The notes under the pieces: model-generated
The model's database searches: none
The model's input: the letters and a program-made list of their open reading frames with translations, nothing else
What the model was told of the DNA's origin: nothing
Made by a program: the position numbers and the translations under genes
Assembly: GCA_017429505.1 (NCBI GenBank)
Contig: JAFROW010000013.1
Location: 140,370-204,369 of the forward strand
From: Clostridia bacterium
GTDB taxonomy: Bacteria; Bacillota; Clostridia; TANB77; CAG-508
Length of the DNA: 64,000 bases
Direction: 5' to 3'
Shown: piece after piece, positions 1,783 through 19,189 of the stretch
Layout: every line of letters begins with the position of its first letter
Numbering within the stretch: the stretch's first letter is position 1

Positions 1783-2379
1783 TTATTTATTTACAATTTC
1801 CCATAGGCCTTTTTGCGCTTTATAAATATATTTTGTTTTATCATCTATACAATGTTTTTTATATAAATGTTTCATATTCTTTTTATTTATTGTTTTTTCT
1901 ATTCCATTTTCTTTAACTTGAAAATAAACTTCTGTTAAAAAATTATCTATTTTGGGATTTATAAGCACTATTTCTCTTTGCTTCATATAGTAGTTATATT
2001 GTAAATCTTGAGTCCAATTTTTTCCATTATATACAATCCCTGCAGATAAATCGTCACACACTTTTTCAACTGCATATTTGTATGGTATTACAGGAACAAT
2101 TGGATCAACATCATAATCTACCCAGTATTCTGGATGATGCTTATTTTTTCCTTTATGATGTAGCCATGCCTCTGAATAGCCTTTATCTTTTTTTGCTTCA
2201 GTTATTGGACTATTTACCCCTACATAATATTTTACTCCTTCCCAAAATTCGGTAGGTGAAAATTTTGATAAATCATGTACAAATCCTCTCCATGGTATCC
2301 CTGCTTTGCATGCTAATTTAAATACTATCCATCTATGTTTTACTATTGTTTTTGTATGTCCTATTATGTTTTTTATCAT
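1783..2379 (-). CDS. DUF5662 family protein
   Basis: A 198-residue soluble protein that I match to DUF5662 from its conserved N-terminal pattern: KHRWIVFKLACKAGIPWRG, then HDLSKFSPTEFWEG, and further on AWLHHKGKNKHHPEYW. The repeated His/Asp motifs (HDLSKFS, HHKGKNKHH) look like a metal-binding HD-like arrangement, but no reaction is known to me for the family. It is common in gut Firmicutes and their phages. It sits alone between the transketolase half and the small-RNA locus at 2.5 kb and is read away from that locus. The start follows an AAAGGAAAG ribosome site. Confidence 0.75.
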   Translation of the reverse strand: MIKNIIGHTKTIVKHRWIVFKLACKAGIPWRGFVHDLSKFSPTEFWEGVKYYVGVNSPITEAKKDKGYSEAWLHHKGKNKHHPEYWVDYDVDPIVPVIPYKYAVEKVCDDLSAGIVYNGKNWTQDLQYNYYMKQREIVLINPKIDNFLTEVYFQVKENGIEKTINKKNMKHLYKKHCIDDKTKYIYKAQKGLWEIVNK

Positions 2380-2479
2380 TTTTATTACCCACTTTCCTTT
2401 ATATATTTAAACATATTTTCTTTAAGATTGCAACACTTTTATTGCTTTAAAAATTTAACTTTTTATTTTTTTGATTTCT

Positions 2480-2523
2480 CCGACAAATTTCGACAGACTT
2501 TGCAAAAATATTGTGATATAATG
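2480..2523 (+). promoter_or_regulatory. Promoter with two tandem Spo0A-like boxes (locus 1)
   Basis: TATAAT lies at 2518-2523. Upstream are TCCGACA (2480-2486) and TTCGACA (2490-2496), two copies of the reverse complement of the 0A-box consensus (TGTCGAA) offset by 10 bp. The second box ends 21 bp before the -10. The same geometry recurs at 63563-63606. Spo0A-activated sigma-A promoters such as spoIIG also have over-long spacers with boxes at -35. Control by Spo0A is inference. Confidence 0.5.
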
Positions 2524-2529
2524 TCATAG

Positions 2530-2624
2530 TCTTTTCTCTTAAAAGGTAGAGAGGAAATGATGAATGTAAGAAATTACATAGTCAAAAAAATTAAAAAAGT
2601 AGGGGAAGCAGCCCCTACTTTTTT
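2530..2624 (+). ncRNA. Small RNA or remnant of a type I toxin mRNA (locus 1)
   Basis: A short transcript is predicted from the promoter at 2518-2523 to the hairpin at 2593-2624. It has a ribosome site (AGAGAGG) and an ATGATG start at 2558, but the frame leads through the terminator, so no convincing protein is encoded. The whole locus aligns with the one at 63.57-63.91 kb, which keeps about 100 bp more between the start and the terminator. Locus 1 is best read as a version that has lost the toxin body while keeping both promoters. The alternative is a plain regulatory RNA. Confidence 0.45.
2593..2624. terminator. Bidirectional terminator of locus 1
   Basis: GTAGGGG / CCCCTAC stem with a six-base loop, flanked by six A on one side and six T on the other, so it can stop transcription from both directions. 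Confidence 0.85.
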
Positions 2625-2661
2625 AATTCATTTTTCATGACGAATGCTGACGTGTTGTATA
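2593..2661 (-). ncRNA. Predicted antisense RNA of locus 1
   Basis: On the minus strand a TATACA -10 (2661-2656) lies in a block (GTTTAAATTATACAA) shared exactly with locus 2. A transcript starting near 2650 would end at the shared terminator (2593-2624). It would thus overlap the 3' end of the plus-strand RNA. Its 5' region (2637-2646) can also pair with the start-codon region at 2558-2567, 9 of 10 bases plus one G-U. This is inference from two paralogous loci. Confidence 0.4.
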
Positions 2662-2741
2662 ATTTAAACTCACTTGTCTAAACTATATATTTAGTATATC
2701 AAATTTTCTTTTGTGTAGTCAATACATTTTGGAAAAATTTT

Positions 2742-3749
2742 CTATTTTTTATATGCATTATTTACAACCTTTTCATATGGTGCATATTTATCAAGCTCAC
2801 CTGCGTCATGTATTACATCTTGTAAAAGTTTAAAATCGGCTTCTTCCATATATGGAGTTTCTTTCCAAGCATTTATTTTTCTGTAACTTTCAATTGCACT
2901 TTCTAAGACTTTCACGTCTGAATCAGGGAAAAATCCTTTTATTAGTTCTGCAATTTCTTTAGATGAATGTGATTTTACATATTGTTCACCTTTATAAATT
3001 GCATTTGTAAATTTTTGAATCACATCGGAATTTTTTTCTATATAGCTCTTTTTCGCAAAATATGCTGTATATGGCACTTTTCCAAGTTCTTTTCCAATAG
3101 ATGTAACCATATAGCCTTTTCCTGAACTTATAATCTGCGAAGTTGTAGGTTCAAATAAAGTTACGAAATCTGCTTTACCTGTAGAAAATGCACTTGCCAT
3201 TAAATCAAAATCTATGCTGTCATCTAATATTAAGTCTTTTGATGGATTAATGCCATTTTTCTTTAATACATACAATAAAGACATATATGGCATTCCGCCT
3301 TTTCTACCTGGTATAATAGTTTTGCCTTTTAAATCTGTCCATTTAAAAATATCTATTTTTTTGCTACTTACCAAAAAAGATCCATCTGTTTGAGTTACTT
3401 GTGCAAAAACTTGTGCATAATCTTCTTTTCCTTCATTATACACATATACACATGTCTCAGGTCCTGCAAACCCAATATCTATTTGATTTGAAAGTACTCC
3501 TGTCATTACGTTATCTGAACCTTGCCCTGTTGTTAAATTTATTTTTAAACCTTCTTCTTCAAAATACCCACTTACAATTGCTACATATTGTGGTGCATAA
3601 AAAACTGACCTTGTAACTTCACTTACAGATATTTCTTTTAAATTTATAGCTTCCTCTTTCGTATTATTTTGGCTGTGTATAAAAATAACAGCTAAAATCA
3701 AAATTATCATTATTGTCATTGATATAATAAAAACTTTTTTTATGTCCAT
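2742..3749 (-). CDS. ABC importer substrate-binding protein, NitT/TauT (NMT1) type
   Basis: The 335-residue protein starts with a membrane segment (residues about 8-25), followed by the pattern seen in the SsuA/ThiY/NMT1 family: YAPQYVAIVSGYFEEEGLKI and then GSDNVMTGVLSNQIDIGFAG. No lipobox cysteine is seen, so it is probably held by the uncleaved N-terminal helix or released by signal peptidase I. The family binds nitrate, sulfonates, taurine, pyrimidine precursors of thiamine and similar small molecules; the substrate cannot be read here and no TPP riboswitch is visible. It is the last gene of an ATPase-permease-binding protein operon. The ATPase of that operon is split by the element at 4.7-15.5 kb. 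Confidence 0.88.
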   Translation of the reverse strand: MDIKKVFIISMTIMIILILAVIFIHSQNNTKEEAINLKEISVSEVTRSVFYAPQYVAIVSGYFEEEGLKINLTTGQGSDNVMTGVLSNQIDIGFAGPETCVYVYNEGKEDYAQVFAQVTQTDGSFLVSSKKIDIFKWTDLKGKTIIPGRKGGMPYMSLLYVLKKNGINPSKDLILDDSIDFDLMASAFSTGKADFVTLFEPTTSQIISSGKGYMVTSIGKELGKVPYTAYFAKKSYIEKNSDVIQKFTNAIYKGEQYVKSHSSKEIAELIKGFFPDSDVKVLESAIESYRKINAWKETPYMEEADFKLLQDVIHDAGELDKYAPYEKVVNNAYKK

Positions 3750-3786
3750 AAATAAATCCTTTCGTCATTATTATTTATTATTGTTT

Positions 3787-4575
3787 TTAAGCTTTTGTTT
3801 TTAAAATAATTTTTTCTAATATAGTAACAGCGCCATACATTAAACCTGCAAAAATTCCTAAAATAATAATGCTACTCATTACTAAATCTAATTTAAACAC
3901 TTGGCCACCATAAGTAATTAAATATCCAAGTCCTGCTTTTGATATTAAAAATTCACCAGAAATTACTCCAACTAAAGAAAGTCCAATATTTATCTTTAAA
4001 GAATTTATAAATGTTGATATATTTGCTGGAATAACAATTTTTGTTAAAATTTGAAATCTACTTGCACCAAATGTTCTTGCCATTTTTATTAGATCTTTGT
4101 CTGTATTTAAAAATCCATTTAATATATCTAAAATTGTTACTATTAAAGAAATTGCAATTGCCATTACTATTATTGCTTTTGTTCCTGCTCCTACCCATAT
4201 TATTATAATTGGACCTAAAGCAACTTTAGGCAAGCTATTTAATACTACTAAATATGGTTCAAAAACTTTAGATAAAAATTCTGACCACCATAAAATTATT
4301 GCAATTACAACTCCTAGTATAATTCCAATTATAAAACCTAATATTGTTTCATATACTGTTACTTTTATATGCATTAATAAATTATTAGATGAAAAATTGG
4401 CAAAAGTGTTAATTATCCTGCTTGGACTACTTGTTATAAAGCTATCTATTATTCCTTTATTTGCTAATAATTCCCATAAGCCTAAAAAAACAGCTAGTAT
4501 TAGAATTTGACTTCCTAAAACTAATATTTTATTAAATTTTTGTTTTCGTAAGTATTTCTTTCGTTCCTCACTCAT
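3787..4575 (-). CDS. ABC importer permease, SsuC/TauC type
   Basis: This 262-residue membrane protein has about six hydrophobic helices. The cytoplasmic coupling region includes MARTFGASRFQILTKIVIPA, the EAA-type loop that contacts the ATPase. It pairs with the downstream binding protein in a NitT/TauT-type importer. Its ATG (4573-4575) lies inside the last codons of the ATPase gene, a translational coupling that shows the ATPase fragment at 4568-4744 is the genuine upstream gene of the operon. Because the ATPase gene is interrupted, the permease now probably depends on transcription out of the element. Confidence 0.9.
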   Translation of the reverse strand: MSEERKKYLRKQKFNKILVLGSQILILAVFLGLWELLANKGIIDSFITSSPSRIINTFANFSSNNLLMHIKVTVYETILGFIIGIILGVVIAIILWWSEFLSKVFEPYLVVLNSLPKVALGPIIIIWVGAGTKAIIVMAIAISLIVTILDILNGFLNTDKDLIKMARTFGASRFQILTKIVIPANISTFINSLKINIGLSLVGVISGEFLISKAGLGYLITYGGQVFKLDLVMSSIIILGIFAGLMYGAVTILEKIILKTKA

Positions 4576-4744
4576 CTACTCCCAACTCCTTCCAAAGCAT
4601 ATTAAAAAAATTGCTAAAAATTGGAGTTTCTCGACAATTCAAAGGAGTTCTATTCTCTATTTCAAATTTTATATCATGTATTGCTTTTACTGTTCCTGGT
4701 CTTTTTGTTAAAACCACTACTCTATCTCCCATACTTATTGCTTC
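4568..4744 (-). pseudogene. 3' part of the importer ATPase gene, cut off by the element
   Basis: Reading minus from the GA core at 4743-4744 gives EAISMGDRVVVLTKRPG and continues to a TGA at 4568. This is the segment that normally follows the switch histidine of a NitT/TauT-type ABC ATPase. Its 5' part lies 10.8 kb away at 15531-16136 and ends at THDIT. Joining the two at the shared GA gives THDITEAISMGD in one frame, so the gene is intact once the element is removed. The end overlaps the permease start (ATGAGTGA). I call it an interrupted gene rather than a decayed one. Confidence 0.92.
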
Positions 4745-4765
4745 TAGTTGAGGTCAAAGTAGACC
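4723..4765. other. Left attachment junction of the serine-recombinase element
   Basis: The core GA (minus strand) is at 4743-4744. To its right lies a 21-bp element arm (4745-4765) ending in AAAGTAGACC. To its left is host ATPase sequence. The arm matches the arm at 15523-15543 in inverted orientation: TAGT, GA at positions 6-7 and AAAGTAGAC are shared. The TGA stop of the recombinase lies inside this arm. Confidence 0.85.
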
Positions 4766-6295
4766 ATTTAATTTTTTAAAATTAAAGACAATATCTATCT
4801 GTTTGTCTTGATGGATTTCTATTCGATTGATAATTATTTTCATAATTTCTGGAGTAGGCTTTTCTAACTTTAGAAATTCCTTTACTACTTTTTTTATATT
4901 TTGTATATCATCTGTTTTATTTTTTTCTTTTAAATTTTTTAAATTAAAGTATTTTTTCTCTTTTTGTGTTAATTCATTCTTCATTTTGCCAAATACTCTA
5001 TTATACATTTCTTCGCTTACTTTTCCATTAAGTTTATCAATATACATTTTATCAATATTATCATTTATTGTCCTTATCTCTGATTCTAATTTTGTTAGCA
5101 ATTTTGAATAATCATATTTTGTCATTCCATTTTGAACATTTAATTCAATTTTGTTGCTATCTATTTTTTGAAACAATTCTCGTATATATTCTAATACTTG
5201 CCTTTCAAGTGCATTGTAACTAAATCCATGTGAAGTGCAAAGTCCTATTTTTGAGTTTCTGCGATAATTATTACATACCATAAAATATTGGCCTTGCTTT
5301 TTACATTTAACTCCTATTTTATGTTTGCACTCATAGCACACTAGCAATCCATCTAATAAAAAATGATGTTTCTTTTCATTCCTTAAATATTTTTGAGTAA
5401 TAACCATATTTTGAATAGAATCAAAGGTATCTTTATCAACTATTGGTTCGTGAGTATTTTCTACAATAATCCATTTTTCTTTTGGATTAGGTTTTAACTT
5501 TCTGTTTTTATAACTTATTCTATTCCTTTTATTCTGTATTGTTGTACCAATATAAACTTTATTTTTAAGAATTTGTTTTACAGTTTTATTTTCCCAAAAA
5601 GTTGGCTTATTATATCTAATTTTACTTGCTGTTGGGATATTATTATCTATAAGCCACTTTTTTATTTCTCCTATGCTTTCTCCAGCATAAGCCTTAGAAA
5701 AAATAGCTTTTATAATTTCTACTTCTTCTTCACAAATAACCAAATGATTTTTGTCATTTGGATCTTTCATATAACCTAGAGCAGTTTTCCCTCCAACCCA
5801 CTTTCCTTGTTTTTGCATTGTGTTCATTGCTGTTTTTATCTTTTTTGATAAATCCTTAGAATACATATCATTTAATATTGATTTAAAAGGTGCTATATCA
5901 TTGTTTCCATTATTTACAGCAAAAGTATCTATTCCATCTGTTACAGCAACATATCTAACATTATGTTCAGGGAACCATTTCTCTATATATTCTCCTGTTT
6001 CTATGTAATCACGACCCAAACGAGATAGGTCTTTTGTTATAACCATATTTACTTTACCAAGTTCAATGTCTTTTATCATCCTAATAAAATCTGGTCTATT
6101 AAAATTCGTTCCTGTATAACCTGGATCAATATAAATATCTATTAATTCATATTTCCATCCTAATTTTTGTATATATTCGGTTAATAAATGTCTTTGATTT
6201 ACAATACTTTCGCTTTCATCAAATCCTTTGTCAGCGTCTTCTCTTGATAATCTAATGTATATTGCAACTTTGTAATAATTTCTTTCTTCAAGCAT
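4754..6295 (-). CDS. Large serine recombinase (integrase of the element)
   Basis: About 513 residues from the ATG at 6295, chosen because it follows GAAAGGAGGATTA; an upstream in-frame ATG lacks such a site. The N-terminal resolvase domain has the catalytic serine in YIRLSRED and the SRLGRDY arginine motif. The recombinase domain and a zinc ribbon (CYECKHKIGVKC, then a later CNNY and C) follow, then a coiled-coil region near residues 390-470. This is the phiC31/TnpX/TndX class, which integrates and excises DNA between attP and attB by a double-strand exchange at a 2-bp core. It is the terminal gene of the element, and its stop codon is embedded in the attachment arm. A directionality factor may be one of the small genes upstream. 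Confidence 0.95.
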   Translation of the reverse strand: MLEERNYYKVAIYIRLSREDADKGFDESESIVNQRHLLTEYIQKLGWKYELIDIYIDPGYTGTNFNRPDFIRMIKDIELGKVNMVITKDLSRLGRDYIETGEYIEKWFPEHNVRYVAVTDGIDTFAVNNGNNDIAPFKSILNDMYSKDLSKKIKTAMNTMQKQGKWVGGKTALGYMKDPNDKNHLVICEEEVEIIKAIFSKAYAGESIGEIKKWLIDNNIPTASKIRYNKPTFWENKTVKQILKNKVYIGTTIQNKRNRISYKNRKLKPNPKEKWIIVENTHEPIVDKDTFDSIQNMVITQKYLRNEKKHHFLLDGLLVCYECKHKIGVKCKKQGQYFMVCNNYRRNSKIGLCTSHGFSYNALERQVLEYIRELFQKIDSNKIELNVQNGMTKYDYSKLLTKLESEIRTINDNIDKMYIDKLNGKVSEEMYNRVFGKMKNELTQKEKKYFNLKNLKEKNKTDDIQNIKKVVKEFLKLEKPTPEIMKIIINRIEIHQDKQIDIVFNFKKLNGLL

Positions 6296-6342
6296 TAATC
6301 CTCCTTTCAGCCTAAAGAAAAATTGAAATTTATCTCTTAACA

Positions 6343-6483
6343 TTATATATCACATTTTTCTACAATGTAATGTTCAAGAAATATTTTTTTTGTTAATGTA
6401 TTTGTTAATATTTCTGATATTAAATTTTCTAATTCTTTTCCTTTCTCATCAAAATACACATTAATTTTAAATTCACATGTCAT
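6343..6483 (-). CDS. Small acidic protein upstream of the recombinase
   Basis: A 46-residue ORF with a good ribosome site (AAGGAG, 8 bases before ATG 6481-6483) that begins MTCEFKINVYFDEKGKELEN. It is followed 47 bp later by the recombinase gene. I do not recognise a named family; small proteins of this kind are often found next to large serine recombinases in clostridial elements and could be an excision factor or regulator. That role is a guess from position only. Confidence 0.55.
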   Translation of the reverse strand: MTCEFKINVYFDEKGKELENLISEILTNTLTKKIFLEHYIVEKCDI

Positions 6484-6600
6484 ATTATTTTTCTCCTTGC
6501 TTTATAAATTTTTATTCAATTTATATGTAGTAAAAAGCCTATATATACCTTTTCTTAGCATACAAATTGGTTGATTAAAGCAATAAAGAGAATTTGAAAA

Positions 6601-6640
6601 AGCAAGCATTTATTTTTCAATAAATTACTTGCTTTTAGTT
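6601..6640 (-). terminator. Terminator after the HTH gene
   Basis: AGCAAG...CTTGCT hairpin with an AT-rich upper stem, followed on the minus strand by five T. It resembles the 28-bp palindromes at 40.7, 49.27 and 49.87 kb. Confidence 0.7.
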
Positions 6641-6669
6641 AATTTTTTAGAACAGTATTCTAGGTACGA

Positions 6670-6982
6670 CTATACTAAATATCTTTTTGACATTTCAATT
6701 GCATGTTGCCATTGTAAATATCTTAAGTGTTTTAGTTCATAGTCTTCTCCACCTTTCAAAACCTGTGCTTTTAATTTTCGCTTTGTCTTTTTTCTTTCAA
6801 GATAATTTTTATACTTTATCTTGCTTCTTTTTCGTTTTTCCTTTTTCCTTTTCATAATTAGGATATCTTTTTAAAACTTTAGTTACATATGCAGGACTTA
6901 TTCCTAATTCTTTTGCTATACAAACACAATTAAACCCTTTTATAAAATACAATTCACAAATTTTCTCTTTCTTGCTGTAAAT
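6670..6982 (-). pseudogene. HTH regulator split by a +1 frameshift in an A-rich tract
   Basis: Two overlapping frames together form one protein. The first (6982-6809, probably an ATT start after AAAGGAGG) gives 57 residues with a sigma-region-4-like helix-turn-helix: CIAKELGISPAYVTKVLKRY. The second (6855-6670) continues with a very basic stretch and ends HAIEMSKRYLV. The family I recall has both parts on one chain. The frames overlap over an A-rich tract at 6809-6855, so a 1-nt insertion, a sequencing error or a real programmed shift are all possible. A role as the element's own regulator is plausible. Confidence 0.5.
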
Positions 6983-6985
6983 TTT

Positions 6986-7261
6986 GATTACCTCCTTTCA
7001 GTTGAATTTGAAGGGAACTTTTATAAGGTTTTATAATCAAAATTTTCTTTGTTTTGAAAATTTGAATTTTTGTATACACTATTTTATTTACTTATAGAAT
7101 TCTTTAAGTACTAATAAGTCGACATCTTTACTATACTATATATTTTTATAAAATTCAATATGTACAAGAAAAAAATATTTTTCTTTGATATTTCAATGAA
7201 TTTTAGCAATTTTAGTGGAGCATATTACATAATATTGATGATTTTATATTGTAATTATCAT
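6986..7261. other. AT-rich gap without a recognisable gene
   Basis: Between the HTH gene and the GNAT terminator I see only AT-rich sequence, with no ORF with a ribosome site and no clear hairpin. It may hold the promoter of the HTH gene. Confidence 0.4.
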
Positions 7262-7292
7262 AAAAGCAGATAACACCAAATTTGTTATCTGC
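7262..7292 (-). terminator. Terminator of the cargo operon
   Basis: GCAGATAACA / TGTTATCTGC perfect 10-bp stem, 7-base loop, followed on the minus strand by TTTTAT. It lies just after the last cargo gene. Confidence 0.8.
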
Positions 7293-7298
7293 ATTACT

Positions 7299-7793
7299 TT
7301 ATATTATCTTTTCATATCCAATGAACTTTTTATCATTAATGCAATATTCTCCACTTTCCACCTTATCAAATCCTAATTTTTCATAAAGTCCTATTGCATA
7401 TATATTCTTTTCATAAACTGTTAGTCTAATAACTTTATAATTCTGTTTAATGATTTCTTTTTCTATGTATTTAATTGTCTCTTTTGCATATCCTTTACCT
7501 TGTTTTTCTGGAATTATTGCAAGTCTATTCAGAGAAATCCATTTTTCATTATATTTCCAATTTATTGACTTATAATCTGGATCATCATAATCGCTTAAAA
7601 CAAAGCTTCCTATTATTTCATCATTGTGCTCTATTACATACATTCTTTTATTCGAAATATCATATTCAAATTCACAAAATGGATAAATATCATTCCACAT
7701 ATTTATTTTCTTTTTATCCATATCTATAATTACTTTTTTGAATAATATATTTAATTCATCTAAATCGCTTTTCTTCGCTAACCTTATATTCAT
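7299..7793 (-). CDS. GNAT N-acetyltransferase
   Basis: A 164-residue acetyltransferase. The acetyl-CoA loop motif is clear: LNRLAIIPEKQGKGYAKETI (the Q/R-x-x-G-x-G/A pattern), followed by IRLTVYEKNIYAIGLYEKLG. The substrate is unknown. The ATG overlaps the last base of the upstream ATPase gene, so it is the final gene of the element's cargo operon and likely modifies the product, or protects the host from it. It is more similar in style to small-molecule acetyltransferases than to RimI. Confidence 0.85.
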   Translation of the reverse strand: MNIRLAKKSDLDELNILFKKVIIDMDKKKINMWNDIYPFCEFEYDISNKRMYVIEHNDEIIGSFVLSDYDDPDYKSINWKYNEKWISLNRLAIIPEKQGKGYAKETIKYIEKEIIKQNYKVIRLTVYEKNIYAIGLYEKLGFDKVESGEYCINDKKFIGYEKII

Positions 7794-8458
7794 TATTGCT
7801 CAACCTCGTTTACTTCATTTTGTCTTTTAAAAGATTTCTCTCTTTCTAATTCGTTTACTGCTGCTTCCTTTAATTTATTCATTTTTGTTTTAAATTCATC
7901 TTCAACTGAAATAATATGAAAATTAGGATGTTTACTCCAAACTTCCATGCTTTTTTTATTTTGTATTCTTGCTTGTTCAGAATTTGATAATCTGAATCTA
8001 TTAGTAGTATTATTATATAATTCAGCATCTCCTACTGCTGTACTTTCTAAATGAAAAATTGCATCATACCTTGCTAATATATCACTCTCTTTCAAATTAT
8101 GAGTTTCTAATATCTTTTGAAATTCATTCTCTAGCAAATACACCTTGCCATCTAAAAGTCCTCTATCTAAAAGCAAAATCATGAAATCTTTTTTATTTTT
8201 TGCCATTATCCTTTTATATAAATTTTCTTTAAACATTTGCATCTCAAAGATAACTTTTTGAAAATCAATTTGAGAAATCGTTCCCTCTGTATGTATGAAT
8301 CCATTTTGCCTTGTTTCTGTTGCAATTTCCGGAATAGTAATGACTTTATATTGTAACTCCTCTAGAAACTTTTTTAATTCTTCTATTCCCTCACTTTTTC
8401 CTGCACATGGACCTCCTGTTAAAACGAAACTTTTTATTTGATTTTTACTCATCTTCAT
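7793..8458 (-). CDS. P-loop ATPase/kinase, AAA_28 (Ttd14/NadR-like)
   Basis: I start it at ATG 8458, inside the end of the preceding gene and after GAAGAGAG; longer in-frame starts would overlap that gene more. Walker A is LTGGPCAGKS, right at the N-terminus, and LLLDRGLLDGK is the second acidic motif, both typical of the AAA_28 family. In animal Ttd14 this ATPase is fused to a CYTH domain. Here the CYTH domain is a separate gene four genes upstream in the same operon, which suggests the two act together on a nucleotide or polyphosphate. The exact substrate cannot be read. Confidence 0.72.
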   Translation of the reverse strand: MKMSKNQIKSFVLTGGPCAGKSEGIEELKKFLEELQYKVITIPEIATETRQNGFIHTEGTISQIDFQKVIFEMQMFKENLYKRIMAKNKKDFMILLLDRGLLDGKVYLLENEFQKILETHNLKESDILARYDAIFHLESTAVGDAELYNNTTNRFRLSNSEQARIQNKKSMEVWSKHPNFHIISVEDEFKTKMNKLKEAAVNELEREKSFKRQNEVNEVEQ

Positions 8459-9824
8459 TTTCCCACTCTCTTCTTTCAAATGCTTCAGGTAATAATTCGC
8501 TAATTGTACAGTATCTATCTTCTGCAACCATAACTTTAGTTTTTAAATTATTACTATTAATCATTCGAATTAACTCTCTACATTTTCCACATGGAGAATA
8601 TATATATCCTTTAACAGAATATGAAACAATTTTCTTTATTTCACTTTCTCCGTTCTTTAACATTTCTAATATTGCTGCCTGTTCCGCACAGTTTCCTAAT
8701 GCACATTTTGAATTAATATTAATACCTGTATAAATCTTTCCCTTACCACTCATTAAAGCACAAGATACATGTCCACAGTATGTATAATCACTTAAAATCC
8801 TTTTTTTTGCATACTTCTTTGCTTCATCTAATAATTTTTTAAACTCTTTATCCATATCTATTTCCTTTCTTGTAAATCTAGCATTTATTGGTATAGTAAT
8901 TAAATCATATATCAAAGCCAATCCCCAAACAAGATAGACAAATGGAAAAATAATCATGTATAAAAAAACCCATATCATATTCTTGATTTTTTTGTCTGCA
9001 AGAATATAGCAAATAAATAGAATTGATATTATTCCACATAATATATTAAATTCCAAAATTTTATATATTAGTATATATACAGGAAGCCATAAAAGATTAA
9101 ATGAAAACGCATGTAAAATTATATAAAATAATACCTTATTATTTCTATTATAAATTATCGTTTCAGCCAGTCCTTTTGCCCATCTTATTCTTTGCTTTAG
9201 TAGTTTAGTTATATTTCCTTTTGGTTTCTCATATCCTAACACATCTTTAACAAAATATATTGGTAATTTTTCTTTTCTTACAACTGTACCAATCATCAAA
9301 TCATCGTATACTGTATCTATATCAGGCAAGTTGTCTTTAAAATACTGTTTATTAATCATAAAAACCTGTCCTGGTAGGCTTATTCCTAATTTAGTATTCC
9401 ATAGTAGAGGTCTTATAAAATTATGCGAAAGATTTTTATCAATATTTATTAGTTTAGGAACAAATCCTTTAATTTTTTTTGCTTTTATTTTTCCCCATGC
9501 GATGCTATAATCTTTTTCAAAGCAATTTCTTATGAACTTTACTATATTTTCTCTATCCATTGTAATATCATTGTCAAAGCATAAAATATCATCAAACTTT
9601 GCTTCTTTTAGCAAAATTTTTATTCTTCTATATTTAGTCATTTGCGGGGTCACAATATTTTTATAAGATTTTTCTTTAATTTCATAATTGCTAAATATTA
9701 TTACTTCGCTTTTACTAAAATTGTCTTGTAAGAAATGTATAATATTATAAATTTCTTTATTGTCTTTCTCATTATTGCTTATAAATGTTGCAATAGTTAT
9801 ACCTTTCGTTATTATTACCTCCAT
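8445..9824 (-). CDS. GT2 membrane glycosyltransferase fused to a cytidine deaminase
   Basis: 459 residues. Residues 1-220 are a family-2 glycosyltransferase: FDND near 83, DDLM near 174 and QRIRW at 211-215 (the D,D,D,QxxRW set of processive or lipid-linked GT2 enzymes). Residues about 231-312 are three or four membrane helices. From residue 324 on there is a complete cytidine deaminase, with zinc ligands and catalytic Glu in NCAEQAA (378-384) and SPCGKCRE (410-417). An internal ATG at 8855 (M324) has its own AAAGGA site, so free deaminase may also be made. The annotated ATG overlaps the previous gene by 53 bp and the true start is uncertain. I know of no described fusion of this kind. Confidence 0.78.
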   Translation of the reverse strand: MEVIITKGITIATFISNNEKDNKEIYNIIHFLQDNFSKSEVIIFSNYEIKEKSYKNIVTPQMTKYRRIKILLKEAKFDDILCFDNDITMDRENIVKFIRNCFEKDYSIAWGKIKAKKIKGFVPKLINIDKNLSHNFIRPLLWNTKLGISLPGQVFMINKQYFKDNLPDIDTVYDDLMIGTVVRKEKLPIYFVKDVLGYEKPKGNITKLLKQRIRWAKGLAETIIYNRNNKVLFYIILHAFSFNLLWLPVYILIYKILEFNILCGIISILFICYILADKKIKNMIWVFLYMIIFPFVYLVWGLALIYDLITIPINARFTRKEIDMDKEFKKLLDEAKKYAKKRILSDYTYCGHVSCALMSGKGKIYTGININSKCALGNCAEQAAILEMLKNGESEIKKIVSYSVKGYIYSPCGKCRELIRMINSNNLKTKVMVAEDRYCTISELLPEAFERREWENEDE

Positions 9825-10365
9825 TCAATATTTCATTTTTTATCAGAATCTTTGCTAACTCAACTTGTGCTTCATCTTTGTCTATAATATGATCTCCATT
9901 TACAAAAATAATTTTCTTATTATTACAAATTGTATTATTTAATAATTCAATACCATGATACATTGGTATTTTCGTATCTTTTTGCGATAATACAAGTTCT
10001 AGATTTTCCACTTCTATTTTACAATCTTTTGGTGAAAAATCCCATTGATTATTTAAATCAAATCCTCTTTCTTCAGATAATATTCGCCTTGAAGAAAACG
10101 GATTTATAAGTGTAATTCTACTTGGTTTACTTTTCTTTATAAAATTTATACTATAATACAAAAGTGAAGCACCTAAACTAATCCCTATCCACCAGTCGGC
10201 ATCGTTATTAACAACTTGATTCCATTGGTTAGGTGAAAGTTCTCCAGTGTCATATTCTATATTGATATAATCAATTTCATATCCTTCTTTTTTTAGTACA
10301 TTTCTAAAACTTTCTAATATTTTTAAATCTTGACCGCGTCCGGCCCAATATAATATTTTTTTCAT
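9772..10365 (-). CDS. Alpha/beta-hydrolase-like protein
   Basis: 197 residues with a nucleophile-elbow pattern (GISLGAS, Ser63) and a late histidine (NGDHI, His159), the order expected for a small alpha/beta hydrolase; LINPF after the second strand also fits. The N-terminal RGQDLK is not a P-loop. Overall similarity to a named family is not obvious to me. Its ATG overlaps the stop of the radical SAM gene and its end overlaps the glycosyltransferase start, so it is translated as part of the cargo operon. It could be a thioesterase, esterase or acyl transfer enzyme. Confidence 0.6.
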   Translation of the reverse strand: MKKILYWAGRGQDLKILESFRNVLKKEGYEIDYINIEYDTGELSPNQWNQVVNNDADWWIGISLGASLLYYSINFIKKSKPSRITLINPFSSRRILSEERGFDLNNQWDFSPKDCKIEVENLELVLSQKDTKIPMYHGIELLNNTICNNKKIIFVNGDHIIDKDEAQVELAKILIKNEILNGGNNNERYNYCNIYKQ

Positions 10366-11537
10366 TATAGCAAGCCCTCATACATCTCATTTGCTAGACT
10401 ATTTCTTAAAACGCCTGCATCAAAAAATGGTTTATAGTCATATTTATGGTATAATTCTGCAGCATATTTATATAAATCAAGAATATATTTTTCATCTATT
10501 CTTCCTAATTTTTTTCCAATTACTGAACCGACTTCTGCGTGATATATATTTGCTCCTGGAACAATACCGTGTTCTGCCATAAACTTAAATCCTTCTTTCA
10601 TATCTTCTATTGGTACAATTCCTGCAACAAAATTGCTCCATACCTTTCCAGTTCCATATATATCTTTTAAATATAATAGAGATTCCACAACATAATCAAA
10701 TCCAACATATTTATCCTTTCCAGGACAAATTTTTTCAAAATTACTTTTTGGCCATACTTCAATATTAAAACTTGGATTTTCAACTCCGTTATCATATAAT
10801 TCTTGTAGTTTACTCATTGTCTTTGGAGGCATCATTGCAACATTTCCTTTAATTTTGCCATTCCACTTTAATTTATCCTTAACTGCTTTTATGATTTCCA
10901 TATGTTTATCAAATTCCTCGTCAGTATTTAAATGAGAACCTCCTGTTATTATTATATAATTATAATCATCATATTTTGTAGCAAGTTCGCATACCTCTGC
11001 CAATTCTTCCGGAGTCTTTACTATTTCAACAGGGTCATCTCTTCTTACTGCACTTTTTACTGAACAAAATTTACAAGGTAGTCCCACATCGTGAAATTCA
11101 CAACCTGAAAATATATTTATATTCATACAATTAAGTCCATATAACTGTGCTAACTTTTTAGTTGGAGTTCCTTTACTTGTTGTATAGTTCCAAAAGTTTG
11201 GTCTAGGTATAAAAGTAAACTCTGTCAAATACTGATTTTCATTTTTGATATATAGTTTGTCATTTTCTAAAGTAAGAGTCAATGGAGAATCTGGTCTAAT
11301 ATGTAATTTTGAAACAATACCTCCAGGTAATAAGATTTCAGATGGGGTTAATCTATTTTTATCAACATCCCAATTTCCATTATCATATGCATAATGTTCT
11401 TCTTTGAAAAAACTTTGGTATTTTTTAAAAATTTCCGGATTATCTTGAACACCATAAACTAACAATTTCAACTTGGCATTCGCACTGTTTTTTCTTTCAT
11501 CTTTTCTTTCGATAAATTGTTCCACTTTCTTATACAT
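10365..11537 (-). CDS. Radical SAM enzyme with atypical CX8CX2C cluster motif
   Basis: About 390 residues from the ATG at 11537, which follows GAAAGGAGAG; an ATG 18 bp upstream would include the ribosome site itself. The putative [4Fe-4S] motif is C-x8-C-x2-C (GCEFHDVGLPCKFCS, C146, C155, C158 from this start) instead of the usual C-x3-C-x2-C. The rest fits a radical SAM barrel: IIITGGSHL (the GGE-like motif), then FNIEVW and a conserved C-terminal half. A long N-terminal domain of about 130 residues precedes the cluster. It sits in the cargo operon between CYTH and the hydrolase gene and is the most likely source of the new chemistry. Confidence 0.8.
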   Translation of the reverse strand: MYKKVEQFIERKDERKNSANAKLKLLVYGVQDNPEIFKKYQSFFKEEHYAYDNGNWDVDKNRLTPSEILLPGGIVSKLHIRPDSPLTLTLENDKLYIKNENQYLTEFTFIPRPNFWNYTTSKGTPTKKLAQLYGLNCMNINIFSGCEFHDVGLPCKFCSVKSAVRRDDPVEIVKTPEELAEVCELATKYDDYNYIIITGGSHLNTDEEFDKHMEIIKAVKDKLKWNGKIKGNVAMMPPKTMSKLQELYDNGVENPSFNIEVWPKSNFEKICPGKDKYVGFDYVVESLLYLKDIYGTGKVWSNFVAGIVPIEDMKEGFKFMAEHGIVPGANIYHAEVGSVIGKKLGRIDEKYILDLYKYAAELYHKYDYKPFFDAGVLRNSLANEMYEGLL

Positions 11538-11559
11538 TAAAAACTCTCCTTTCATTCAA

Positions 11560-12057
11560 TTACAAATTAGGGTCATATTCACTAGTGTATTTTTCAACTT
11601 TTGATAACAATGTATTATCAAATCTCTTATCAAAGCATAAATCTTTTCCTAACCATTCAGGTTTATCAAAATTTTCTGCCACTTCAAGATTTGGAAATTC
11701 TACTTCTGCAAATACCAACCCTTCTAAATTTCCATGAAATACGTCTAATTCAACTGTTAATCCATCATTAATCGGAATCTTATATCTATCCTTTTTTATT
11801 AAATAATTTTCAATTTTATTTAATAAAATGTTGTAATTTTCTTCTGTTAATGGCATCGTATATTCGATATTTTGTATAGCAACTTTTTCTTCTAATCCTT
11901 TTTGTTTCCATTTGTAATTTAAAGTGTATTCATCATTTGATTTTCTTATTCTTACAGTTGGCTTAATACACAAGTATCCTTGCTCTATTTCCTCCTTTTC
12001 GTATTTTTCTAAATTCTCTGGCATTTTAACCACAGCAAATTTTCTTTCGATTTCCAT
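11560..12057 (-). CDS. CYTH-domain protein (triphosphate tunnel fold)
   Basis: About 165 residues starting at MEIERKF, the ExExK signature of the CYTH superfamily; the ATG at 12057 follows AAGGAGG, so the longer frame to 12108 is not used. Basic and acidic residues alternate on strands (VRIRKSNDEYTLNYKWK), as expected for a triphosphate tunnel. The family includes adenylate cyclase class IV, thiamine triphosphatase and polyphosphatases. It lies 60 bp after the thymidylate-kinase-like gene and 22 bp before the radical SAM gene. Link to the Ttd14-like ATPase in the same operon is noted in the findings. Confidence 0.85.
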   Translation of the reverse strand: MEIERKFAVVKMPENLEKYEKEEIEQGYLCIKPTVRIRKSNDEYTLNYKWKQKGLEEKVAIQNIEYTMPLTEENYNILLNKIENYLIKKDRYKIPINDGLTVELDVFHGNLEGLVFAEVEFPNLEVAENFDKPEWLGKDLCFDKRFDNTLLSKVEKYTSEYDPNL

Positions 12058-12116
12058 AATCGAAACCTCCTTATTAAAAAATTTTATAATAATATAAATT
12101 ATTACCAATATAAGTT

Positions 12117-12704
12117 TTATCTTTCTTCATCGTGTTCTTCTTTTTTATTTATTTTCAAGTATTTACAAACTTCCTCAAAAACTTCATTTTCATCTTTTTC
12201 AGATGTGTCAATATTAATCCATTTTATATCAGTTCTATCTTGCATTTTATTTAAAAACCATTTATACCTATCATTTCTTCCTTTAGTTACATCATCAAAT
12301 CCTTCTGCTTTTCTTTTTTCTATTCTATCAACTCTCTTTTCAAAATCACAAGATAAACAAATGATTCCATCCGGCTTATAAAATTTCGAACAAAATTCAT
12401 CTTGAATTCTACAAACATCTTCATAACTAAAGATTTTGTCAGCATATGCTGCTGCTAATGTGCTTATCCAATATCTTACTAATATTGCATCCTGTTTTGA
12501 ATCTTTTACCCTTTCACTACATATTCTACCATATTCTAAAAATTTTTTCACTCTTTTTTTTCCATCGTATTTTTTGGCTTCTTTGTTTAATTGTACTATA
12601 TCTTCTTCATTAGTTACTATTCTAAATCCAAAATTCTTTTGTAGTTTTATTGCTAATGTATCCTTGCCTGTACCATTGTCGCCCTCAATAGCAAAAAAAC
12701 TCAT
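12117..12704 (-). CDS. Thymidylate-kinase-like nucleotide kinase
   Basis: 195 residues starting with a Walker A loop, IEGDNGTGKDTLA, which fits the thymidylate kinase family (usually EGxxGxGKST/S). The LID-like region has basic residues (EKRVDRIEKRKAEG). It is shorter and more divergent than the housekeeping Tmk, so a salvage or specialised nucleotide kinase is more likely than the essential enzyme. It is the first gene of the cargo operon after the terminator at 12.74 kb. The phosphate acceptor cannot be told from sequence alone. Confidence 0.75.
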   Translation of the reverse strand: MSFFAIEGDNGTGKDTLAIKLQKNFGFRIVTNEEDIVQLNKEAKKYDGKKRVKKFLEYGRICSERVKDSKQDAILVRYWISTLAAAYADKIFSYEDVCRIQDEFCSKFYKPDGIICLSCDFEKRVDRIEKRKAEGFDDVTKGRNDRYKWFLNKMQDRTDIKWINIDTSEKDENEVFEEVCKYLKINKKEEHDEER

Positions 12705-12737
12705 TTTTTCAAATCCTTTCTAAATTTTTAAAATAAG

Positions 12738-12772
12738 CAAAAAGAGATTGTATTCTAACAATCTCTTTCATG
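12738..12772 (-). terminator. Terminator between the GreA-like gene and the cargo operon
   Basis: AAAGAGATTGT / ACAATCTCTTT hairpin with an 8-base loop, between the GreA-like gene and the kinase gene. On the minus strand the stem is followed by a T-rich stretch with a G. It would make the cargo operon partly independent or attenuated. Confidence 0.7.
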
Positions 12773-12810
12773 CTAAAATCATCACCACCCTAATTTTAAA
12801 GGTAGTTTTC

Positions 12811-13287
12811 TTAATTTTCAATTTTAGAAATTAAAATTTTTACCTTGTTTCCATTTGGTAAAACACATCTTACTTCATCGCCAACTTTTTTCATAAATAT
12901 TGCTTTTCCTATTGGAGAATTAAGTGTTATTTGGCTCAATTCAAGTTTTGGGTCTTTAGGTAATGCAACCAATTCTCCTTGTACTATGTCCACATCTTCA
13001 TTTCCATAATCAACTTTTAAGGTTACATGATTACCCACTTTAACACTATTACTATCGTTGTCTTTTTCTTCAACTATTGTCGCAGTTTCAATTTCATGTT
13101 TTAAATCTCTAATTTGTTTTAATATTCCTCTTTCTTGAATTTCTGCTTGTTCAAATCCGAAATTGTCATGAAATGTGTTTCCAGCCGATTGACTTAATCT
13201 CTTTTCTTTGTAGATTTCCTTTAGCCTATCATTAAGTCTTTCGATTTCCATCCGTTTTTCCTCTAATGCTTTTTCTGTTAACAACAT
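12811..13287 (-). CDS. GreA/GreB-family transcription factor-like protein
   Basis: 158 residues from the ATG at 13287 (AAAGGA nine bases upstream). An N-terminal coiled coil (residues 5-75) and a C-terminal FKBP-like domain (ISLNSPIGKA-type motif, here LNSPIGKAIFMKK) match the Gre fold. The tip, which in GreA carries GDLSEN, reads FHDNFGFE and keeps only some acidic residues, so transcript cleavage activity is uncertain. It may instead regulate RNA polymerase as Rnk or similar paralogues do. It is transcribed divergently from the gene at 13.5 kb. Confidence 0.75.
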   Translation of the reverse strand: MLLTEKALEEKRMEIERLNDRLKEIYKEKRLSQSAGNTFHDNFGFEQAEIQERGILKQIRDLKHEIETATIVEEKDNDSNSVKVGNHVTLKVDYGNEDVDIVQGELVALPKDPKLELSQITLNSPIGKAIFMKKVGDEVRCVLPNGNKVKILISKIEN

Positions 13288-13344
13288 AAAAATTATTCCT
13301 TTCATGAAATATTAAGATCAGATTGTTAGTTACTTATGCGTTTT

Positions 13345-13373
13345 ATGTTAACATATTTTTGACTGTTTGTCAA
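13345..13373 (-). promoter_or_regulatory. Promoter of the GreA-like gene
   Basis: Minus strand TTGACA (13373-13368), 17-bp spacer, TAACAT (13350-13345). A second TTGACA lies 23 bp upstream. Confidence 0.7.
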
Positions 13374-13480
13374 CGTTTTTTGTTATTTTTTGTCAACTTT
13401 TCTAAAAAAATGGGCTCTTTTGTGTGAAAGAATTTCAAACGAGTTTTATAATTTCATTTTAAAAAATGCAGATATGTTCC

Positions 13481-13509
13481 TTGATTTTATTTCTATTTTA
13501 TGATAATAT
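13481..13509 (+). promoter_or_regulatory. Promoter of the 13.5-kb plus-strand gene
   Basis: TTGATT (13481-13486), 17-bp spacer, TAATAT (13504-13509), 29 bp before the start codon. Confidence 0.7.
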
Positions 13510-13538
13510 TATGTAAAACATTTTAGGAGGTGCTTTGT

Positions 13539-14036
13539 ATGATTAATGTGTATAATTGGTCATATCAAGTTGACAAATCTCTTGTACGGATTGAATTTCA
13601 TGATAAGATGAAATTAAAACTTCAGTCCGCCATCAAGAAATATAACGGTCAAGATATGCCAATAAAAACAGAACAAAATGAATTTATAGTTAAGTTTAAA
13701 AACTCCAAAGTAGCAAATGATTTTATTGATTACATTCTGCAAGAATATCCAAATTCATTTACTTTAAGCAATGATTGGGACATTGCAAAATATGCTGAAA
13801 ATATATTGTCTTTAACGGCTATAAGAGAATATTCTGATTCGACTTCTGCTCTCGAAAAAATAATACATTCTCTATTTTCAGATTGCAAGATTATATCAAG
13901 TTTAACAAAATATGATATTTCCAATGTTCAAATCAGTGCTGAATCTTCGCTCTGTTATTTTTCTTTTATAATAGAATTCAAAACAAGCGAAGATGCTCAA
14001 ATATTTCTTGATGAATTTCTCAACTTTAAAGCATAG
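13539..14036 (+). CDS. Unknown soluble protein of the element
   Basis: 165 residues from ATG 13539, preceded by TTTTAGGAGG; a GTG nine bases earlier lies within the ribosome site and is not the start. The protein begins MINVYNWSYQVDKSLVRIEF and is mixed charged, without membrane segments or motifs I recognise. It appears to have two similar halves, each with a strand-helix pattern ending in an aspartate-phenylalanine region (NDFIDYILQEY and AQIFLDEFLNF), so an internal duplication is possible. It is the only plus-strand gene of the element, read divergently from the GreA-like gene. Confidence 0.7.
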   Translation: MINVYNWSYQVDKSLVRIEFHDKMKLKLQSAIKKYNGQDMPIKTEQNEFIVKFKNSKVANDFIDYILQEYPNSFTLSNDWDIAKYAENILSLTAIREYSDSTSALEKIIHSLFSDCKIISSLTKYDISNVQISAESSLCYFSFIIEFKTSEDAQIFLDEFLNFKA

Positions 14037-14054
14037 TATTATTCTAATTAGGAT

Positions 14055-14095
14055 AATACAAAGTCACTATTACTTAAGCAGTATAGTGACTTTTT
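14055..14095 (+). terminator. Terminator of the 13.5-kb gene
   Basis: AAAGTCACTATA-type stem (AAAGTCACTA / TAGTGACTTTT) with a long loop, followed by T7. Confidence 0.8.
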
Positions 14096-14162
14096 TATTT
14101 TAAAAAAAATACACACGAGTTTATAATTATTATGTTTATTTTTAAATAATGATTACAATTTA

Positions 14163-14199
14163 AAAAAGTCTATTCCTCCAAAATAGAATAATAGACTTT
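14163..14199 (-). terminator. Terminator of the Replic_Relax-like gene
   Basis: AAAGTCTATT / AATAGACTTTA stem. On the minus strand it is followed by a T-rich run. Confidence 0.7.
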
Positions 14200-14264
14200 A
14201 AATTAAGTTACTTTATTTGATGGATATGTTTTATTAAAGTTATCATCAAAAAAACTTTATCAAA

Positions 14265-15212
14265 TTATAATTTTTTTACTTTACATATGCCATCATTATC
14301 ATATTTATAGATATGCATTGTTTTTTCAATATAATTGTTTAAATCTATGGTCACATAATCTGCTGTAGGAAGTTCTTTTCGTATCAGCTCCTCAATTTTT
14401 TTAGTACAAACAATAGTGGCATTTCTATAATTATTTACATTTAAAAAATGCCAATTTCTCATTATCTTTTCAGTATCAACAAAGAAAAACAAAGAGATAA
14501 ACTTATCTTTATAATCCGTATAATCACAAAAATTATATCCAGATAAATATACTTTGTCATCATAAAAGTCATGTATGAAATTCTCCCATCTAATATTGTG
14601 AAGATATTTTAATTTTTCTCTGTTTTCGACAGTATCTTCAATAATTAATATTTCATTTTTCCCAAATGCGAATTCCATTAAGTTAATCCTTTTTATATCG
14701 TCTACTAGAACAATAAAATTATTATAAAATTGTTCTTTTTGTATATCCCAAATAACTGATTCTACATATTTTTGGTCATGTTCTTTTGTAATTTGATAAG
14801 TTAAATAATCGAATCCATTTATATCTAAGATTCCAACAAACCTTCTTCCAGTTGTTGTAAACACTTCTTTATTTTTCATAGCAAATGATGGTGTAAACTT
14901 TACTGTTTTACTATTATTATAATATGCTCCTATATTTGCAATCCTTATTAATCTCTCTTTATATTTTTTATTTAAATTTCTTTTATTATATTCACAAGAA
15001 AAAAATTGAGTATATCTTATACCCATACCTCCTAGCACTAGATTCCATTTTACCCTTTTTAATATTTCTTTATCTACTAAATTTTTAACCCTTTTCTTAT
15101 AATACTTTGTTGATTTAAAAAAGTACTTTACATCATTTATATTTATGTACTGATACTTAGCAATAAATTTTATTAAGCATATTTCCTCATCATTATCCAA
15201 AAAATATCTCAT
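14265..15212 (-). CDS. Replication-relaxation (Replic_Relax)-like wHTH protein
   Basis: 315 residues. The N-terminus looks like a winged helix (CLIKFIAKYQYININDVKYF...), followed by a compact alpha/beta region. The overall layout resembles the Replic_Relax family of plasmid and integrative-element proteins (wHTH plus a nuclease-like domain), but I cannot point to catalytic residues, so this is a tentative match. It follows a GAGAGGAGG site. Its upstream region carries two strong hairpins (15.24-15.30 kb), one of them a terminator directly before the ribosome site. Confidence 0.45.
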   Translation of the reverse strand: MRYFLDNDEEICLIKFIAKYQYININDVKYFFKSTKYYKKRVKNLVDKEILKRVKWNLVLGGMGIRYTQFFSCEYNKRNLNKKYKERLIRIANIGAYYNNSKTVKFTPSFAMKNKEVFTTTGRRFVGILDINGFDYLTYQITKEHDQKYVESVIWDIQKEQFYNNFIVLVDDIKRINLMEFAFGKNEILIIEDTVENREKLKYLHNIRWENFIHDFYDDKVYLSGYNFCDYTDYKDKFISLFFFVDTEKIMRNWHFLNVNNYRNATIVCTKKIEELIRKELPTADYVTIDLNNYIEKTMHIYKYDNDGICKVKKL

Positions 15213-15235
15213 ATAATCATCCTCCTCTCACAAAA

Positions 15236-15303
15236 AAATGGAACAACAACTTTGTCCCATTTTTTGGTAGGAATTCCCTATCTTCGATAGGTACTCCCTA
15301 CCT
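15236..15303 (-). promoter_or_regulatory. Leader hairpins before the Replic_Relax-like gene
   Basis: Minus strand order: a GGTAGGG ... CCTACC stem containing CCTATCGAAGATAGG, then AAAAAATGGGACAA ... CCATTTTTT, an intrinsic-terminator shape, then GAGAGGAGG and the ATG 12 nt further. A terminator so close to the ribosome site suggests attenuation; the upstream hairpin could act as anti-structure. Confidence 0.5.
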
Positions 15304-15522
15304 CCACTAGCTTATTAGATTTTTTTACCTTTAAAAGTATTAAATTATCAAGATTTTTTAATTTCTAAAACCTAGCAAATTAACCTTATTTATATCTTTC
15401 ATTTTGCTCCATTTTTTAATCCTGCTATTTTACCATAATTTAGCATTTTTTTATAAAAATAATTACTAATTTTTTATAAATTTCAATTTTTTTCTATAGG
15501 CTCTATCTAATATTTTTTTAGT

Positions 15523-15566
15523 AGTCTACTTTAGAATCTACTATCTGTAATATCATGTGTTACCAT
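15523..15566. other. Right attachment junction of the element
   Basis: The GA core (minus strand) is at 15544-15545. The element arm 15523-15543 mirrors the arm at 4745-4765 with the shared block AAAGTAGAC. Host ATPase sequence (ACACATGATATTACA, minus) lies at 15546 onwards. Confidence 0.85.
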
Positions 15567-16136
15567 TAAAGTTGTAATTTTTTCTTTTTTTAGTATATTG
15601 TAAATGTCCTCTGTAACTTTAATTCTTGTTTGATAATCTAATGCTGAAAAAGCCTCATCTAAAAGTAAAATTTTCGGTTTTACACTTAAAGTCCTTATAA
15701 GTGCTGCTCTTTGCCTCATTCCTCCTGAAAGTTGATTTGGAAATTTGTCTTTAAAATCGAACAATCCATATTTTTTTAAAAGATTTTCTGCATACTGGGT
15801 GTTTTTCTTATTCTTTATTCCTTTTATTTCTAATCCTAATAAAACATTACTATATATTGTTCTCCATTCTAAAAGACAATCTTTTTGTAACATATATCCT
15901 ATTTTTGATGAAACTCCATTTACTTCTTCGTTTTCAACTATAATCTTCCCTTCTGTTTTGTCTTCAAGTCCTGAAATTATTGATAGTAATGTTGATTTTC
16001 CACACCCACTTGGCCCAATTATGCTTACAAATTCACCTTTTTTTATTTTTAAATTAATATCTTTTAATGCTAAGGTTTCTCCATTTTTCTGCTGATATTT
16101 TTTACTTACATTTTGTATATCTAATATATCTTCCAT
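15531..16136 (-). pseudogene. 5' part of the importer ATPase gene, interrupted by the element
   Basis: About 201 residues of a NitT/TauT-type ABC ATPase. Walker A is GPSGCGKST, the signature LSGGMRQR, Walker B LLLDEAFSALD, and the chain ends at the switch histidine MVTHDIT, after which the element provides three or four foreign codons and a TAA (15531-15533). The remaining 58 codons lie at 4568-4744. I start at ATG 16136 (MEDILDIQNVSKKY); an in-frame ATG at 16157 is also possible. As it stands the product lacks its C-terminal part and is probably inactive. Confidence 0.92.
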
Positions 16137-16157
16137 AATTACTATCAGTCCTTTCAT

Positions 16158-19185: not shown

Positions 19186-19189
19186 TGAA

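Follow-up and report, generated by a model that had tools for sequence, protein, structure and literature searches.

A kinase, a radical SAM enzyme, a hydrolase and a membrane glycosyltransferase form a conserved gene unit, possibly a biosynthetic accessory operon that is rare among Clostridia

The 64,000-nucleotide stretch of Clostridia bacterium contig JAFROW010000013.1 analyzed here (the window) carries, on a mobile element, an operon of seven minus-strand genes. Four of them, encoding a thymidylate-kinase-like kinase (K), a radical S-adenosylmethionine (radical SAM) enzyme (rSAM), a small hydrolase (HYD) and a family 2 glycosyltransferase (GT2), are a conserved, co-diverging unit, hereafter the core. 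The core genes probably make or modify one molecule. They could well constitute an accessory biosynthetic operon that is rare among Clostridia, ends in membrane glycosylation and rides on unrelated mobile elements, a reading that we hold with about even confidence. The core genes of the window are:

12117 to 12704, minus strand: core gene 1, K, thymidylate-kinase-like P-loop kinase (Pfam, alignment, PADLOC)
10365 to 11537, minus strand: core gene 2, rSAM, variant radical SAM enzyme, biotin-synthase-related (longest open reading frame to 11555; better start at 11537)
9772 to 10365, minus strand: core gene 3, HYD, small alpha/beta-hydrolase (predicted fold and invariant Ser63 (GISLGAS), Asp130 and His159)
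8859 to 9824, minus strand: core gene 4, GT2 membrane glycosyltransferase (Pfam, motifs, hydropathy; the frame continues into the deaminase)

Other loci were collected by one scan of genome contigs with a two-member rSAM profile, which gave seven, or eight with the window; the locus L012 is on the same contig as L003. K, rSAM, HYD and GT2 stood in one order in six of the seven (seven of eight with the window), with gaps of at most 75 nucleotides or overlaps between them. HYD and GT2 overlap by 53 nucleotides in the window (9772-9824) and by 35-71 across the seven complete loci, and the unit is compact, taking up some 3.2 kb in both L010 and L013. At the eighth locus (L012/L003), K and a gene for a CYTH protein are kept, and an in-frame deletion fuses rSAM to GT2 with loss of HYD. 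The 431-residue frame there (L003, 8080-9375) holds the first part of rSAM and most of GT2, as in an operon copy undergoing decay. Immediately before K comes a gene for a HAD-type phosphatase, and downstream is one that by eye resembles asparagine synthase.

The four core proteins have diverged together. Their distance matrices over the seven complete loci correlate at 0.89-0.96, a statistic that ignores shared host ancestry, and, counting the observed order, no more than 2 (HYD), 3 (GT2) and 2 (K) of the 5040 permutations reached the correlation with rSAM. Identity over these loci is 63-91% for rSAM and 32-80% for GT2, HYD and K. The ratio of nonsynonymous to synonymous substitution rates (dN/dS) was computed for genes with a partner in L007 or L008, AAA_28 and GNAT having none. 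Between the window and L007 it was 0.21 for the GreA-like gene, 0.11 for K, 0.04 for CYTH, 0.05 for rSAM, 0.18 for HYD, 0.17 for GT2 and 0.05 for the cytidine deaminase, and these values (0.04-0.21) show purifying selection on the seven genes compared. Rougher values against L008 (dS 1.2-3.4) were 0.10 for K, 0.02 for CYTH, 0.05 for rSAM, 0.24 for HYD and 0.13 for GT2.

The unit is rare. rSAM was matched in 2 of 94 relatives at E 1e-20 and, among 391 sampled genomes of the class, only in its own genome at 1e-40; at 1e-60 it was found in 3 of 210 genomes of the genus and in 1 of 120 of the genus of Ruminococcus flavefaciens FD-1, namely FD-1 itself. HYD (E 1e-8; 321 sampled class genomes) and K (E 1e-12; 245) were likewise each matched once, in the genome of the window. 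A search of the phylum with rSAM at 1e-30 passed 7 of 299 genomes, the window's own and six with distant rSAM proteins, and no core partner was seen in the stretches examined around those six.

By sequence, rSAM belongs to the Radical_SAM superfamily (PF04055; 4e-9, 37.3 bits against a cutoff of 29.5) and scores 257.8 bits with the curated variant_rSAM model NF045502 (cutoff 125). Its Cys152-x8-Cys161-x2-Cys164 motif (CX8CX2C) is invariant in 7/7 members of the family and was also present in all nine distant relatives examined, in five of them as read inside a longer pattern match. One such distant gene (L035, 5879-8325) has, by eye, PylC-like and MttB-like genes nearby. For rSAM itself, the only solved enzymes of the class found by sequence were biotin synthases (E 1e-3 to 5e-3), and the structural neighbors of the predicted model are lipoyl synthase, NifB, HydG, MqnE, ThiH, BioB and HydE. 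The substrates of radical SAM enzymes of this kind are mostly small molecules or bound acyl chains, and a small substrate is therefore favored for rSAM.

Among the closest described counterparts is the radical SAM protein of the Nit1C cluster (MSMEG_0568). We take TIGR04043 to be its family; rSAM reaches 86.5 bits with this model, below the cutoff of 303.7. The Nit1C radical SAM protein is reported to be most related to the biotin-synthase-related COG2516, and its cluster to include GNAT, with a glycosyltransferase inserted in two genera (PMC1199592). However, none of the window operon genes gave a nitrilase-type Pfam match, the window GNAT lies outside the core, and GNAT and GT2 are compared with the Nit1C genes here by gene kind.

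K is matched in Pfam by Thymidylate_kin (1e-7) and dNK (4e-7), and it stays below the cutoff of the dTMP kinase model TIGR00041 (83.25 bits), with 33 bits in the window, 37.2 in L010 and 29.9 in L011. The Asp-Arg (DR) motif is important in thymidylate kinases (TMKs). Its Asp is replaced by V, I or A in 8/8 K proteins (L[VIA]RYW, aligned to LDRF of a TMK), and from general enzymology this loss of a carboxylate is likely to make a nucleoside-hydroxyl kinase less probable and a phosphate-acceptor kinase more probable. All eight kinases also match the PADLOC models PDC-M51B (best 4.5e-19) and VakA (best 4.9e-13); the text of a neighboring model, "Viperins associated with kinases," suggests that VakA denotes a viperin-associated kinase.

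The fourth open reading frame, HYD, had no match in Pfam, NCBIfam, PADLOC or PHROGs. Its AlphaFold model (predicted local distance difference test, pLDDT, 86) matches small serine esterases, with 5cml_B the best Foldseek hit (E 2.1e-8), and Ser63, Asp130 and His159 are invariant in 7/7 members by alignment. GT2 matches Glyco_trans_2_3 (1e-9, 38.7 bits against a cutoff of 27); its DND, DD and QRxRW motifs are invariant in 7/7 members, and hydropathy alone gives two to three hydrophobic segments at the C-terminus. Column 12 of the GT2 alignment holds Thr in the window and Met in L007 and L008, and the window GT2 may therefore start further upstream.

In the window the core lies within a longer run. 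The preliminary description, made from the sequence alone, had seen seven minus-strand genes with four overlapping junctions and a terminator on each side, and the open reading frame list and a hairpin scan bear this out: seven tightly packed frames are bounded by two terminator-like hairpins. The longest minus-strand frames are 12117-12704, 11560-12108, 10365-11555, 9772-10365, 8445-9824, 7793-8527 and 7299-7793. Besides the HYD/GT2 overlap already given, the overlapping junctions are rSAM/HYD (1 nucleotide), deaminase/AAA_28 (14 nucleotides, or 83 if AAA_28 is counted from its TTG start) and AAA_28/GNAT (1 nucleotide). The families named earlier were also recovered, kinase, radical SAM, GT2, deaminase, AAA_28 and GNAT by Pfam and CYTH by structure profile, and the open-licence literature searched held no description of this gene set, as the description had supposed. 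The remaining features of the operon are:

11560 to 12057, minus strand: CYTH (triphosphate-tunnel) protein (longest frame to 12108; ATG with Shine-Dalgarno at 12057)
8445 to 8855, minus strand: cytidine deaminase (dCMP_cyt_deam_1, 2e-8; own Shine-Dalgarno, ATG at 8855)
7793 to 8458, minus strand: AAA_28 (P-loop) protein, accessory (Pfam 9e-15; longest frame to 8527, likely start 8458)
7299 to 7793, minus strand: GNAT acetyltransferase, accessory (Pfam 5e-16)
12811 to 13287, minus strand: GreA-like gene (family search; a 75% identical gene lies directly upstream of K in L007)
12740 to 12769, minus strand: terminator-like hairpin in the interval from the GreA-like gene to K (hairpin scan)
7266 to 7292, both strands: terminator-like palindrome closing the operon (hairpin scan)

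Terminator-like sites numbered 8 in positions 5000-15000, against 1.5 ± 1.0 in shuffles. The order GreA-like gene, like hairpin, K recurs in the window (12740-12811) and L007 (2273-2379), and by our reading the L007 hairpin stands at the same place with paired base changes. The hairpin may act as terminator or as an attenuator tied to the GreA paralogue.

CYTH was found in five of the eight loci (window, L007, L008, L009 and L003) and not in L010, L011 or L013. The protein had no Pfam match at E 0.1 or 10, where filters drop most weak matches, and the best structure match of a profile of two members was 2fbl (NE1496, 2e-16). We take NE1496 to be NeuTTM, the inorganic triphosphatase of CYTH type from Nitrosomonas europaea (N. 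europaea). The ExExK motif is the signature of the CYTH family, and EIERK, Tyr28 and Lys49 are kept in 5/5 CYTH sequences aligned to 2fbl. Tyr28 and Lys49 of the window protein line up with Tyr-28 and Lys-52 of NeuTTM, the numbering being shifted by one residue. That pair has been proposed as the catalytic dyad of NeuTTM (PMC3440374). Since the Tyr/Lys pair is kept, tripolyphosphatase activity would be a first guess for the window CYTH; unlike NeuTTM, it is an operon gene beside rSAM, and it is absent in 3/8 loci.

A 459-residue frame joins GT2 and deaminase in the window, and these had been described as one fusion protein. This is unlikely, because GT2 and deaminase are separate frames in L007, overlapping by 28 nucleotides, and because the window has a ribosome site, AAGAAAGGAAATAGAT, ahead of an internal ATG at 8855. 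The joint frame most likely represents two translated genes, possibly with an additional fused form. The deaminase is present in the window and L007 and was not found in 5/8 loci; the L008 contig ends 149 nucleotides past GT2.

AAA_28 and GNAT stand apart from the core. No relative of either was seen at E 1e-4 in the stretches examined of the other loci, whose 3' side gave a good test only in L003, L009, L010 and L013. The contig left on this side was 259 nucleotides past the deaminase in L007, and 149 (L008) and 687 (L011) nucleotides past GT2. Neither gene lies within the 259 nucleotides of L007, where we read a terminator-like stretch after the deaminase. AAA_28 matched 2 of 117 genomes of the genus at E 1e-25, its own and G578 (35% identity). 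The expectation that the genes would travel together held for K, rSAM, HYD and GT2, found together in 7/8 loci, and found no support for AAA_28 and GNAT, seen beside the core only in the window. A single pathway of all seven genes is not borne out, nor is self-protection by GNAT, and until they are found elsewhere both genes should be regarded as separate cargo. The P-loop and CYTH domain kinds of the operon recall Ttd14, whose P-loop domain we presume to be of the AAA_28 type. In Ttd14 the P-loop domain spans residues 65-167 and the CYTH domain 279-437 (PMC4624897). In the window, by contrast, the two are separate genes that are neither fused nor direct neighbors, and conservation with the core does not extend to AAA_28.

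The operon sits in an element of about 10.8 kb (~4744-15545) that interrupts an ABC-ATPase gene. A serine recombinase and this split host gene support the mobile element that the preliminary description had proposed. Its features are:

4754 to 6343, minus strand: large serine recombinase at the left end (family search)
4743 to 4745: left edge, crossover within TCT of the plus strand (sequence comparison at the edge)
15544 to 15546: right edge, crossover within TCT of the plus strand (sequence comparison at the edge)
15531 to 16157, minus strand: host ABC-ATPase gene, N-terminal part (comparison with relatives)
4568 to 4745, minus strand: the same gene, C-terminal part (comparison with relatives)
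14265 to 15212, minus strand: element backbone gene (no match in Pfam, NCBIfam, PADLOC or PHROGs)

The frame at 15531-16157 departs from the ABC-ATPase family sequence after ...VTHDIT, and the lacking part picks up at 4745. Its N-terminal part was matched in 20 of 36 genomes, and the gene is uninterrupted at the element site (VTHDISEAISM) in eight of the nine relatives' loci examined; the ninth, L042, had no frame meeting the filter, and two further matches, outside the nine, contain stops. At 2742-4745 and 15531-16157 lie the two parts of the broken gene, which encodes an ABC transporter ATPase, and, adjoining the left edge, genes that by eye are permease-like and substrate-binding-protein-like. 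Next to the element, 16356-20899 encodes two long, by eye BspA-like proteins that carry leucine-rich and fibronectin-like repeats.

Elsewhere, a tyrosine recombinase lies 171 nucleotides upstream of K in L009 and 327 in L011, the latter also with a relaxase; in L010 a serine-recombinase relative is encoded some 5.8 kb downstream of GT2. We infer transfer of the operon between hosts from its patchy distribution and the recombinases. Several Clostridia-type genomes have retained the core genes as a group, and in three instances or more (window, L009 and L011) a recombinase gene is nearby.

The simplest reading of the core is a four-enzyme pathway unit of kinase, radical, hydrolase and membrane glycosyltransfer steps, in an order that we propose tentatively. 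The TMK-like kinase would phosphorylate a small precursor, probably of nucleotide or sugar type, and the most constrained step, the key remodelling, would fall to the oxygen-sensitive radical SAM enzyme. The hydrolase may then cleave an ester or thioester, and the membrane GT2 would add a sugar at the cytoplasmic face to give a glycosylated, probably lipid- or surface-linked product. Where present, CYTH may clear a tripolyphosphate or triphosphate by-product.

Several points weigh against this biosynthetic reading. The loci number only eight, several of them from short contigs of metagenome-assembled genomes, and co-divergence shows joint descent and not interaction. The rSAM model is of moderate quality (pLDDT 67) and resembles radical SAM enzymes generally, and the distant rSAM relatives sit among other genes. 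Profiles of GT2 and HYD found no solved structure at E 1, and with the acidic TMK residue lost in 8/8 members a plain nucleotide kinase activity of K appears uncertain. The core has no conserved exporter, regulator or resistance gene alongside it, and by our readings no recombinase was recognized beside L007, L008, L013 or L003.

One alternative is that the unit modifies a surface glycan or lipid and so alters phage receptors or host interaction, K and rSAM making an unusual sugar that GT2 adds to a lipid or polymer. The QxxRW motif and hydrophobic C-terminus of GT2 fit such a role, and the much faster divergence of GT2, HYD and K than of rSAM would be expected if the acceptor varied by host. 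Three GT2 homologues match CelA or PgaC, but only at E 6.5e-4 to 2.4e-3, and the window GT2 gave neither match; moreover, the unit has no flippase, ligase, sugar-nucleotide enzyme or transporter. We judge this alternative fairly unlikely.

Anti-phage nucleotide chemistry with a viperin-like logic is a weaker but live rival to the biosynthetic reading, in which K would supply a nucleotide substrate, rSAM would convert this substrate to an antimetabolite, with CYTH or the deaminase tuning the pool. A radical SAM gene beside a TMK-like kinase matching the VakA model does recall the prokaryotic viperins (SAND). The viperin cluster motif is given as CxxxCxxC (PMC9642334). rSAM lacks it, and none of its seven members matched any PADLOC model at E 0.1, the pVip models included; by motif (CX8CX2C) and by model (0/7 matches) rSAM is not a viperin. 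Although 8/8 kinases match PDC-M51B and VakA, a thymidylate kinase PHROG fits K equally well (50.8 bits against 49.3 and 43.5). Nor does the viperin scheme have a place for the added esterase or the membrane GT2, while CYTH is absent in 3/8 loci and the deaminase was not found in 5/8.

Two neighborhoods bear on the same question. In L013, five same-strand genes (2-9326) lie upstream of the core, the last ending 111 nucleotides before K; they include an MkoA-like helicase gene (1.7e-101) and one for an AAA protein matching PDC-M37B (5.5e-33). The MkoB match is weak (8e-4), and a whole Mokosh system is not shown. L010, from R. flavefaciens FD-1, extends the core in a tight run by a PP-loop ATPase before K (8240-9427) and by a PfkB-type kinase and a second radical SAM protein after GT2 (12673-14815). 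This second protein matches a pVip model at 3e-12, but far better resembles PapB-type peptide maturases (1.4e-39, below cutoff at 136 against 340 bits). The kinase matches to PADLOC, the MkoA-like neighbor in one locus and the patchy, mobile context keep defence in play; HYD and GT2 suit a biosynthetic or envelope role better, and overall we consider defence unlikely.

A bolder version has the core as a self-contained mobile system making a radical-edited, nucleotide- or sugar-derived compound and glycosylating it at the membrane. The compound would be an anti-phage or interbacterial agent of a new chemical class, made by a non-viperin radical SAM enzyme together with a viperin-kinase-like partner. 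This we regard as a long shot. A chance pile of unrelated cargo genes, suggested by the rarity of AAA_28 and by its presence with GNAT beside the core only in the window, is refuted for the core four by the one order in 7/8 loci, congruent divergence and purifying selection, and is very improbable.

Under the biosynthetic reading, the product, once found, would assign a chemistry to an orphan family of biotin-synthase-related radical SAM enzymes and would show what benefit such elements bring to their hosts.

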